Assembly: GCF_039649665.1 (NCBI RefSeq)
Contig: NZ_JBDJAW010000016.1
Location: 62,001 to 126,000 of the forward strand
Direction: 5' to 3'
Length of the DNA: 64,000 bases
DNA from: Microbispora sp. ZYX-F-249
Lineage (GTDB): Bacteria > Actinomycetota > Actinomycetes > Streptosporangiales > Streptosporangiaceae
Made by a program: the position numbers and the translations under genes. This document shows, one piece after another, positions 861-3,222 of this stretch (positions within the stretch are counted from its first letter, which is position 1; the number at the start of each line of letters is the position of its first letter). The notes below the pieces were generated by a model, which worked only from the letters and a program-made list of their open reading frames with translations, was not told the origin of the DNA and made no database searches.

Positions 861-1310
861 GTGATGGCAGGTGTCTCGACCCTCGTGGCCACGCTCGTCC
901 TGGGCGTGGTCATCGGACTGGTCCTGAGACGGCGTGACGGGAGGATGCGGGCCGTGGAACACGCCCCGGTGACGAGCGCGGATCTCGGTGCCGACCTCGG
1001 CGAGCGCGCCACGCTGGTGCAGTTCTCGACCGCGTTCTGCCAGCCGTGCCGGGCGACCCGCCGGATTCTGGGCGAGGTGGCCGCCATGGTGCCCGGCGTC
1101 CGGCACGTGGAGATCGACGCGGAGTCGCGCCTCGACCTGGTCAGGCGCTTCGAGGTGCTGCGCACCCCCACCGTGCTCGTCCTCGACGACGCGGGAAACG
1201 TCGTGAAGAGGGCGTCCGGCCAGCCGCGCAAGGCCGACGTGATCGTCGCCCTCGGTGCGGCCGTGGACGGCGCGTCTCATGGGCCGTCTCATCCATCGGA
1301 CAAGGTGTGA
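861..1310 (+). CDS. Membrane-anchored thioredoxin-family protein
   Basis: About 149 residues. One N-terminal membrane helix is followed by a thioredoxin fold with the active site FCQPC and the cis-Pro segment LRTPTVLVLD. The CxxC pair is intact, so a thiol-disulfide exchange role outside or at the membrane is likely. It sits directly before the sulfur operon (leader peptide, DUF4395, sulfurtransferase, DUF1416). Thioredoxin-like genes are common in that position, which suggests it reduces the sulfurtransferase system or a partner. GTG 861 is chosen because a -10 box ends 8 nt upstream; ATG 864 is an alternative. Confidence 0.8.
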   Translation: MMAGVSTLVATLVLGVVIGLVLRRRDGRMRAVEHAPVTSADLGADLGERATLVQFSTAFCQPCRATRRILGEVAAMVPGVRHVEIDAESRLDLVRRFEVLRTPTVLVLDDAGNVVKRASGQPRKADVIVALGAAVDGASHGPSHPSDKV

Positions 1311-1335
1311 CAGATGCCGAGACGGAAGGTACTGT
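1307..1335 (+). promoter_or_regulatory. Promoter of the Cys leader peptide and sulfur operon
   Basis: A -35 box GTGACA (1307-1312), a 17-nt spacer and a -10 box TACTGT (1330-1335) form a good vegetative promoter. The start site predicted about 7 nt downstream falls on the ATG at 1343, so the leader peptide would be translated from a leaderless transcript. The -35 box overlaps the stop codon of the thioredoxin gene. Confidence 0.65.
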
Positions 1336-1342
1336 CATGACC

Positions 1343-1426
1343 ATGACTCCCACGACAGAGCTGCTCACGAAGCGGCGCGCGGTGGACTTCTGCCGCGTCG
1401 CGACCTCGCTCTGTCGCATGGCCTGA
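1343..1426 (+). CDS. Cysteine-containing leader peptide (attenuator uORF)
   Basis: A 27-codon ORF beginning at ATG 1343 (or 29 codons from ATG 1337, which would lie upstream of the predicted transcript start). It ends in the pattern RRAVDFCRVATSLCRMA. This resembles the short leader peptides found before sulfur and cysteine genes in actinobacteria, where ribosome stalling at Cys codons reports cysteine shortage. It lies 57 nt before the DUF4395 gene. The gap contains a GCGGC/GCCGC hairpin (1438-1452), and TCCTG (1434-1438) can pair with CAGGA (1468-1472) over the next Shine-Dalgarno. The regulatory role is inferred from family resemblance and position. Confidence 0.75.
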   Translation: MTPTTELLTKRRAVDFCRVATSLCRMA

Positions 1427-1483
1427 GGGTGATTCCTGCGGCTTCGTGCCGCGTTCCAAGAATCCTTCAGGAGCATCCCCACG
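1427..1483 (+). promoter_or_regulatory. Putative attenuator between leader peptide and DUF4395 gene
   Basis: Hairpin GCGGC-TTCGT-GCCGC (1438-1452) is nested inside a possible 5-bp pairing of TCCTG (1434-1438) with CAGGA (1468-1472), which overlaps the AGGAG ribosome site of the next gene. There is no U-tract, so translational control is more likely than transcription termination. The fold is inferred, not calculated. Confidence 0.4.
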
Positions 1484-1894: not shown

Positions 1895-2730
1895 GCCGCT
1901 CCGCCGTTCTGGTGGACGCCGACTGGGTCGAGGCCAACCTCGACACGCCGGGTGTCGTGCTCGTCGAGGTCGACGAGGACACCAGCGCCTACGACAAGGG
2001 TCACATCCGCGGTGCCGTGAAGATCGACTGGAAGACCGACCTGCAGGACCCGGTCCGCCGCGACTTCGTCGACAAGGCCGGTTTCGAGGCCCTGCTGTCG
2101 GCCAAGGGCATCGCCAACGACGACACGGTCGTCCTCTACGGCGGCAACAACAACTGGTTCGCCGCTTACGCCTACTGGTACTTCAAGGTCTACGGCCACG
2201 ACAACGTCAAGCTGCTCGACGGCGGACGCAAGAAGTGGGAGCTGGAGTCCCGCGAGCTGGTCGAGGACGTCGTCGCGCGGCCGGCCACGCAGTACGCGGC
2301 CAAGGAGCCGAACAACGACATCCGCGCCTTCCGTGACGACGTCGTCGCCGCGATCGGCAAGCTGAACCTGGTCGACGTGCGCTCGCCCGACGAGTTCACC
2401 GGCAAGCTGCTCGCCCCGGCCCACGTTCCGCAGGAGGCGGCGCAGCGCGGCGGCCACGTGCCCACCGCCCGCAACATCCCGTGGTCCAAGGCGGCCAACG
2501 ACGACGGCACCTTCCGCTCCGACGACGAGCTCCGCGAGCTCTACTCCGGCGCCGGCGTGGACCTCTCCAAGGACACCATCGCCTACTGCCGCATCGGCGA
2601 GCGCTCCGCGCACACGTGGTTCGTGCTGCACGAGCTGCTCGACCAGCCCAACGTCAAGAACTACGACGGTTCGTGGACCGAGTACGGCTCGCTCGTGGGC
2701 GTGCCGATCGAGCTGGGGGAGGCCCGCTGA
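1891..2730 (+). CDS. sseA: Thiosulfate/3-mercaptopyruvate sulfurtransferase (two-domain rhodanese)
   Basis: 279 residues with two rhodanese domains. The N-terminal one is inactive, as is usual, and the C-terminal one carries the active-site loop CRIGERSAHTWF, with the catalytic Cys at about residue 233. This loop is typical of the actinobacterial CysA/SseA group. The enzyme moves a sulfane sulfur from thiosulfate or mercaptopyruvate to a thiophilic acceptor in the cytoplasm. It is coupled by overlapping start and stop codons to DUF4395 upstream and DUF1416 downstream, and the whole operon appears to be governed by the Cys leader peptide. Confidence 0.93.
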   Translation: MSRSAVLVDADWVEANLDTPGVVLVEVDEDTSAYDKGHIRGAVKIDWKTDLQDPVRRDFVDKAGFEALLSAKGIANDDTVVLYGGNNNWFAAYAYWYFKVYGHDNVKLLDGGRKKWELESRELVEDVVARPATQYAAKEPNNDIRAFRDDVVAAIGKLNLVDVRSPDEFTGKLLAPAHVPQEAAQRGGHVPTARNIPWSKAANDDGTFRSDDELRELYSGAGVDLSKDTIAYCRIGERSAHTWFVLHELLDQPNVKNYDGSWTEYGSLVGVPIELGEAR

Positions 2731-3029
2731 TGACCATCCAGGGTTGCGCTGCTCCTGAGCAGACCGTCGCGCTGCCGGCCGGCATCGACCTGTCCAACCA
2801 GGCCGTGATCCAGGGCGTCGTCTCCGGCGCCGGCTCGGCGTACGCCCGCCTGCTGGACCACAGCGGCGAGTTCACCGGCGAGGTCGTCGTCTCCGACGAG
2901 GGCATCTTCCGTTTCTTCGCGGCTCCCGGCCAGTGGACCGTCCGCATCATCGCCGGCGGCGGCGTCACCAAGGACGTCCCCGTCGAGGCCAAGCTCGGCG
3001 AGGTCGCCCAGCTCTCGGTCACCGTCTGA
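2730..3029 (+). CDS. DUF1416 family protein
   Basis: 99 residues starting at the ATG that overlaps the sulfurtransferase stop (TGATG). Sequence GCAAPEQ near the start and a beta-rich body (VIQGVVSGAGSAYARLLD, then FRFFAAPGQWTVRI) match the DUF1416 family, which nearly always follows the actinobacterial sulfurtransferase gene. It looks like a small immunoglobulin or transthyretin-like fold with one conserved Cys near the N-terminus. Its function is unknown; a sulfur-accepting or sulfurtransferase-binding role is inferred from the invariant neighbourhood. Confidence 0.88.
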   Translation: MTIQGCAAPEQTVALPAGIDLSNQAVIQGVVSGAGSAYARLLDHSGEFTGEVVVSDEGIFRFFAAPGQWTVRIIAGGGVTKDVPVEAKLGEVAQLSVTV

Positions 3030-3099: not shown

Positions 3100-3222
3100 G
3101 TGGTTCCGGTGAGGCTCGATCCCGAGTTGCGCTCCGCCTTGATCACAAGGGCCAAGCGCGATCAAACCAGCGCCAGCGAGGTCATCCGCCGAGCACTGCG
3201 CGCATGGCTTCACGTGGCCTGA
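3100..3222 (+). CDS. Small ribbon-helix-helix protein (40 aa)
   Basis: Starting from GTG 3100, the product is VPVRLDPELRSALITRAKRD followed by QTSASEVIRRALRAWL, a clear RHH/CopG-type pattern: a short strand (VPVRLD), then helix A and helix B with the SASEVIRRAL motif. These proteins bind DNA as dimers and are often antitoxins, but no toxin ORF follows. The frame is much shorter than most neighbours and may be a remnant or an orphan regulator. The start is uncertain because no strong Shine-Dalgarno is visible. Confidence 0.55.
   Translation: MVPVRLDPELRSALITRAKRDQTSASEVIRRALRAWLHVA

Follow-up and report, generated by a model that had tools for sequence, protein, structure and literature searches.

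A leaderless two-cysteine leader peptide with a near-universal UGU codon probably attenuates translation of a sulfur operon in Microbispora

INTRODUCTION

Can a short reading frame with only two, separated cysteine codons act as a cysteine sensor for the genes behind it? The question arises in Microbispora sp. ZYX-F-249, where such a frame lies ahead of sulfur-handling genes within a stretch of 64,000 nucleotides (nt) (contig NZ_JBDJAW010000016.1, positions 62,001 to 126,000), called the window here and used for all coordinates. The prediction of cysteine-coding leader open reading frames (ORFs) that lack terminator hairpins dates from 2005 and, as set out in excerpts of PMC1262725, concerned cys operons of Mycobacterium and Propionibacterium and cbs of Bifidobacterium. 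Passages of PMC4633059 reported in 2015 that a Cys-rich upstream ORF precedes cysA2 and carries ribosomes in M. smegmatis, and the M. smegmatis leaders were shown to be cysteine-dependent attenuators in 2020, according to portions of PMC9031893 and PMC13236596.

For the window, the best explanation is cysteine-responsive translational attenuation, as a preliminary description of the locus had proposed, with a leaderless leader, a sequestering helix (stem B), and the second cysteine codon (Cys2) as the sensor; from comparison of sequences, we regard this reading as quite probable. Through the leader, a ribosome would probably detect a lack of cysteine and turn on the operon, seemingly via one constant UGU and not via a run of cysteine codons.

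RESULTS

The leader peptide and its relatives

The leader and the genes that follow it are as follows.

1343 to 1426, + strand: leader ORF, MTPTTELLTKRRAVDFCRVATSLCRMA, 27 codons plus TGA (NF042934 and NF042933 scores)
1391 to 1393, + strand: first cysteine codon (Cys1), TGC (of 82 relatives, 74 have Cys here, 73 of them as TGC)
1412 to 1414, + strand: Cys2 codon, TGT, the proposed sensor codon (TGT in 82 of 82 DUF4395 leaders)
1484 to 1894, + strand: gene for a DUF4395 membrane-type protein (Pfam PF14340, E 6e-46)
1891 to 2730, + strand: gene for a rhodanese-domain protein of the thiosulfate or mercaptopyruvate sulfurtransferase type (Pfam PF00581, two stretches)
2730 to 3029, + strand: DUF1416 gene (Pfam PF07210, E 2.4e-34)

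The short ORF with two Cys codons starting at ATG 1343 is read directly from the sequence. Its stop codon (TGA) occupies 1424 to 1426, 57 nt before the DUF4395 start. The ends of the DUF4395, rhodanese, and DUF1416 genes overlap, and their Pfam assignments agree with the earlier statement that the downstream genes handle sulfur. The best NCBIfam match of the rhodanese gene is 3-mercaptopyruvate sulfurtransferase, below the cut-off; the DUF1416 gene is one that we take to be of the SseC type.

The peptide matches two curated leader models, one above and one just below its cut-off. Read from ATG 1343, it scores 31.5 bits against NCBIfam NF042934 (putative leader peptide; curated cut-off, 27) and 44.4 bits against NF042933 (Ms5788A Cys-rich; curated cut-off, 45); from an in-frame ATG at 1337, the scores are 31.3 and 44.6 bits, and in the genome search the NF042933 score is 42.9 bits, again below 45. 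Since the NF042933 cut-off is narrowly missed, the leader is filed as the closest kin of that family and not as a member by NCBI's rule. By the sequence match to the general model, NF042934, it is assigned to an established type of cysteine-sensing leader. Matches to NF042934 at E 0.001 or better occur in 89 of the 118 genomes of the class, exceeding the cut-off in 78.

Relatives were collected in two ways. The DUF4395 loci number 110 (30 from one search plus 80 kept of 495 confirmed in another), and a search for the same peptide before these genes, as suggested earlier, found a leader within 330 nt in 91; dropping 9 exact repeats left 82 unique leaders. Among the 19 loci lacking one are 14 of the 16 named Streptomyces (L088, L096, L104, L106, L107, L114, L115, L119, L121, L123, L124, L132, L140, and L146); genomes of one large-genome family (f20), by contrast, hold 4 to 11 leader matches each. 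The family models yielded 54 loci, which came to 48 leaders after removal of one locus without the motif and five repeats; at least two of the 48 (L055 and L163) are also represented among the 82. One further record, from Nonomuraea and lacking an annotated feature at that place, came from a plasmid search.

The same peptide core also precedes genes other than DUF4395: by motif, the genes after the 48 family-model leaders are assigned to DUF4395 (14), rhodanese (6), or sulfite reductase (3), with no assignment for the remaining 25. Among the 82, the peptide is conserved as protein while its codons vary silently: the Arg at position -13 is written with six codons, the Asp at -9 as GAC (50) or GAT (32), and the Val codon at -10 also varies.

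A leaderless start on ATG 1343

The promoter named in the preliminary description, GTGACA-17-TACTGT, is present with both elements and their 17-nt spacing.

1307 to 1312, + strand: -35 element GTGACA (sequence; GTGACA at this place in 54 of the 80 related leaders having a -10 element)
1330 to 1335, + strand: -10 element TACTGT, 7 nt before ATG 1343 (TANNNT spacing in relatives)

The -35 element overlaps the end of a thioredoxin-like ORF (852 to 1310). No promoter emerged from a plain sigma-70 consensus scan, so the assignment rests on conservation and not on consensus. TANNNT lies exactly 7 nt upstream of the leader start in 66 of the 82 related leaders, as opposed to 0 of 82 at 6 to 8 nt upstream of the DUF4395 start, the control. 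For this comparison the leader start was picked without using the -10 element, as the nearest in-frame ATG or GTG at least 18 codons before Cys2. Because of this difference (66/82 versus 0/82), a leaderless transcript starting on or at ATG 1343, as claimed before, is very likely on comparative grounds. The other in-frame ATG, at 1337, is merely 1 nt past the -10 element; that closeness and the conserved 7-nt spacing make ATG 1343 the likely start.

Fixation of TGT at the second cysteine codon

The two cysteines of the window leader stand seven codons apart, with no contiguous Cys run. At the Cys1 place, the relatives without Cys carry Gly, Arg, or Leu instead. At the Cys2 place, all 82 DUF4395 leaders have TGT; the motif by which leaders were found demands a Cys there and leaves its codon free, so that Cys is necessarily present there in all 82, which does not hold for the TGT result. 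Among the 48 distinct family-model leaders, which precede several kinds of genes, Cys2 is TGT in 45. The three exceptions (L060 to L062), with TGC, are Cys-run leaders from two genera of one family. TGT is otherwise rare: the DUF4395 genes of the same 82 loci use TGC 155 times and TGT 16 times, and the 41 mechanical ORFs of the window with at least 200 codons and high GC3 use TGC 142 times and TGT 14 times. No report of a fixed TGT, or of its nearness to an anti-Shine-Dalgarno segment, was found in the portions consulted of the literature on the family, its genes, and UGU or wobble leaders, although it may be in print.

Cys2 also lies within a helix, stem A.

1353 to 1361, + strand: stem A 5' arm, CGACAGAGC, pairing with 1408 to 1416
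1408 to 1416, + strand: stem A 3' arm, GCTCTGTCG, spanning the Cys2 codon (folding and covariation)

Over the alignment, 96.4% of stem A cells are paired, and the covariation score exceeds that of all 500 shuffles (37 distinct rows); the count of pairs changed on both sides was reached by 46 of 500 shuffles. Pairing in stem A was considered as the full reason for TGT and rejected, because TGT is fixed in 82 of 82 leaders and a helix of at least seven Watson-Crick pairs running through its third base forms in 47 of 80. Stem A is absent in some lineages that retain TGT.

An anti-Shine-Dalgarno arm downstream of Cys2

Folding places the following elements between Cys2 and the DUF4395 gene.

1422 to 1429, + strand: anti-Shine-Dalgarno arm CCTGAGGG, overlapping the leader stop codon (folding, alignment, permutation)
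1437 to 1453, + strand: hairpin TGCGGC-TTCGT-GCCGCG between the stem B arms, with no U-run after it (folding)
1464 to 1473, + strand: paired arm CCTTCAGG (1464 to 1471) plus AG; the Shine-Dalgarno sequence CAGGAG is at 1468 to 1473 (folding, alignment)

Stem B joins CCTGAGGG with CCTTCAGG and ATTC with GAAT, and its formation would hide the DUF4395 ribosome site. When the folded RNA extends further into the DUF4395 gene, the GAGGGTGATT stretch pairs with GATCGACCCTC of the gene instead in the best fold. The hairpin expected after the leader ORF was recovered by folding, as GCGGC-TTCGT-GCCGC, and a scan of the leader region for intrinsic terminators found none. A second small hairpin, GCATC/GATGC (1473 to 1487), surrounds the DUF4395 start and includes its ATG; most of 39 relatives retain its GCAT and ATGC. 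A search against Rfam gave a single sub-threshold snoRNA match (15.7 bits versus a cut-off of 38), taken as chance.

Counted from the first base of the Cys2 codon, the arm CCTGAGGG begins 10 nt downstream, which in our model is within reach of a ribosome waiting there. In 49 dissimilar representatives of the 82 leaders, the segment after Cys2 binds its own ribosome-site region with a mean energy of -13.0 kcal/mol, versus -11.2 kcal/mol for mismatched partners, and none of 20,000 permutations was as low as the cognate energy; helices average 5.12 pairs in cognate and 4.50 in mismatched combinations, a difference reached by 1 of 20,000 permutations. Common ancestry among the 49 means that these counts are not strict probabilities. 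The match is strongest when the 22-nt segment starts 0 to 6 nt after the first base of Cys2. In some lineages the partners are re-made in other letters (GCTTCCC/GGGAAGC and GTTTCCC/GGGAAAC), and in three Acrocarpospora loci (L073, L074, and L077) with an earlier stop codon, CCTGAGG still stands at the same distance from Cys2. Seven leaders (L091, L098, L100, L109, L125, L141, and L144), mostly from Streptomycetaceae, have TGT but no clear anti-Shine-Dalgarno segment.

The permutation test across the 49 leaders is stronger than the alignment test of stem B. In a 39-sequence alignment, the cells paired in stem B exceed those in all 500 shuffles and its covariation score was reached by 17 of 500, but its pair-type count is no higher than in shuffles (reached by 500 of 500). 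Helix 1 has 86.1% of cells paired and zero pairs changed on both sides; in helix 2, all four pairs are changed on both sides, with 64.8% of cells paired. The TCCTG/CAGGA pairing favored in the preliminary description is not conserved: all five pairs form in just 9 of the 39 aligned relatives, and 485 of 500 column shuffles scored at least as high on cells paired. On this comparison, CCTGAGGG/CCTTCAGG is the better supported candidate for the sequester.

Attenuation model and ribosome-stall folding

Together, the relatives point to a conserved leaderless promoter, a conserved peptide, a conserved TGT codon, and matched anti-Shine-Dalgarno and Shine-Dalgarno partners. In the mechanism that we propose, the transcript would start on or at ATG 1343, and the 27-codon leader would be translated without a Shine-Dalgarno site. 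With ample cysteinyl-tRNA, the ribosome would pass both Cys codons, end at TGA 1424, and leave; CCTGAGGG (1422 to 1429) would then pair with CCTTCAGG (1464 to 1471), and with the DUF4395 site hidden the operon would be weakly translated. When cysteinyl-tRNA is scarce, the ribosome would wait with UGU 1412 in its A site. The leading edge of a ribosome lies about 13 nt on from the A-site codon. The edge of the waiting ribosome would therefore cover CCU, leaving AGGAG free and allowing translation of DUF4395-rhodanese-DUF1416. Waiting at Cys1 would leave the sequester intact, which points to Cys2 as the sensor. The waiting of the ribosome, the direction in which control acts, and the role of cysteine as signal are inferred.

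A thermodynamic stall model was applied to 77 of the 82 leaders under 12 settings, which vary the 3' cut of the RNA and the ribosome edge. With RNA to 6 nt past the start and the edge 13 nt from the A-site codon, the ribosome site in the window has a predicted accessibility of 0.17 with no ribosome, 0.19 with a ribosome at Cys1, 0.49 at Cys2, and 0.32 at the stop codon; from Cys1 to Cys2, it rises in 47 of the 77 leaders and falls in 4. Rises outnumber falls over the 77 leaders in all 12 settings, including with the RNA cut right after the start codon (35 rise and 15 fall, edge 13) and with 30 nt more RNA (32 rise and 3 fall, edge 13). For the window itself, accessibility falls at Cys2 from 0.31-0.32 to 0.23-0.28 when the RNA is cut right after the start codon and is 0.29 to 0.32 in every state with 15 or 30 nt more RNA. 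The modeled leader set thus agrees in direction, and the window taken by itself is not decisive. Judged by the mean of the 77, in 9 of the 12 settings the site is opened at least as well by a ribosome at the stop codon as by one at Cys2, which suggests that events when the ribosome leaves the stop codon matter.

That stop-codon effect is also what would be expected if the leader merely delivered ribosomes to DUF4395 by coupling or re-initiation and sensed nothing, and the two frames do share a transcript with 57 nt from stop to start. Plain delivery, however, leaves the fixed TGT, the conserved peptide, and the occurrence of the same peptide core before other genes unexplained, and we consider it very improbable. 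Silent codon change under a conserved peptide would fit arrest by the nascent peptide, in which the ligand would be cysteine or some other sulfur or redox signal and the main cue would not be a lack of Cys-tRNA. The conserved residues could, however, merely aid the stall, and Cys2 is fixed on a codon otherwise rare at the same loci, as expected for sensing by decoding; peptide arrest as the main cue seems unlikely.

Transcription attenuation by Rho, in which fast passage of the leader leaves spacer RNA to Rho and waiting ribosomes shield it, would suit the lack of an intrinsic terminator and was proposed for mycobacterial cys leaders in 2005, in a prediction that its authors call rather weak in the relevant part of PMC1262725. 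The window spacer, however, is just 57 nt and folds into hairpins, and an anti-Shine-Dalgarno match across lineages is expected for control of translation start instead, making Rho an improbable agent here. Cysteine-responsive translational attenuation remains the preferred reading.

Relation to polycysteine attenuators

Polycysteine, leaderless short ORFs of Mycobacterium smegmatis were reportedly described by Canestrari et al. in 2020, with ribosomes stalled at Cys codons said to free a hidden ribosome site. The window leader shares with this Ms5788A family a leaderless start, an LTKRRAVD-CRVA core, and sulfur-metabolism-type genes downstream, and differs in having two spaced Cys in place of a contiguous run. 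No sequence difference from the NF042934 leaders was seen; the name of that model (cis_reg_atten) states no amino acid and, apart from attenuation, no mechanism. Like the leaders predicted in 2005, the window has a short ORF with Cys codons before sulfur genes and no terminator hairpin; unlike it, those leaders carry Cys runs near the stop, and Rho, not a hidden ribosome site, was suggested for them, according to excerpts of PMC1262725. The uORFC-8-2 before cysS of Rhodobacterales, an unrelated lineage, is a short Cys-codon ORF for which ribosome-mediated attenuation was proposed, and differs from the window in having tandem Cys codons, mostly UGC, and an intrinsic terminator, as described in part of PMC8632094.

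The location of the anti-Shine-Dalgarno arm also differs from that in Cys-run leaders. In the window it is on the 3' side of Cys2 and overlaps the stop codon. In L048, it is the Cys codons of the run that pair upstream of the ribosome site; in L049, this part is taken by codons before the run, and L059 has no good fit at the likely start. Of the four Cys-run loci tried, L048, L049, and L059 show a start motif of the DUF4395 type behind the leader and L047 does not; for L048 a protein search places a DUF4395 relative just downstream. The partner available to the L048 run is CAGCAACAG, just upstream of the DUF4395 ribosome site, so that the codons chosen for the run may double as an anti-Shine-Dalgarno arm.

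The earlier suggestion that two spaced Cys may mark a different mode gains some support: Cys1 is sometimes lost, Cys2 is nearly always TGT, and the sequester lies just 3' of Cys2. Specialists may be unaware of the fixed UGU and of how close it lies to the anti-Shine-Dalgarno segment. A tRNA-Cys with anticodon GCA reads UGU by wobble. We tentatively suggest, as a reading with a real though limited chance of being right, that the actinobacterial sensor is a single near-universal UGU in a conserved peptide, RRxVDxxRVxxxxC, with the anti-Shine-Dalgarno segment placed under the ribosome waiting there; the wobble-read UGU would be the more starvation-sensitive Cys codon, so that codon choice, and perhaps the peptide, would set sensitivity, and poly-Cys runs would be the elaboration of one lineage. 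Against it stand the three Cys-run leaders with TGC and the dominance of UGC in the Rhodobacterales cysS leaders treated in part of PMC8632094, by which UGU is no general rule of Cys attenuators.

The window leader offers a concrete structural model for a two-Cys attenuator. With it, cysteine-responsive translational attenuation, known from mycobacterial poly-Cys ORFs, would also take in a two-Cys form present in Microbispora and many other actinobacteria. Its fixed UGU makes it possible to test whether the synonymous codons of sensor ORFs are chosen for sensitivity to tRNA charging.

Other leaders in the genome and a neighboring ORF

The NF042934 search gave four likely leaders in the genome of the window, two of them above the cut-off. 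Apart from the window leader, one (L004) precedes a sulfite or nitrite reductase gene. Another (L005, G000:C4:140071-140121) is a leader-like ORF scoring 26.0 bits (cut-off, 27) with TGT as Cys2; the gene behind it encodes a pyruvate/2-oxoacid ferredoxin oxidoreductase (Pfam POR_N and POR) and does not belong to cysteine biosynthesis. L006 lies before a gene that resembles, by eye, a winged-helix regulator. Within the window, the short ORF VPVRLDPELRSALITRAKRDQTSASEVIRRALRAWLHVA (3100 to 3222) has, by eye, the look of a ribbon-helix-helix DNA-binding protein.
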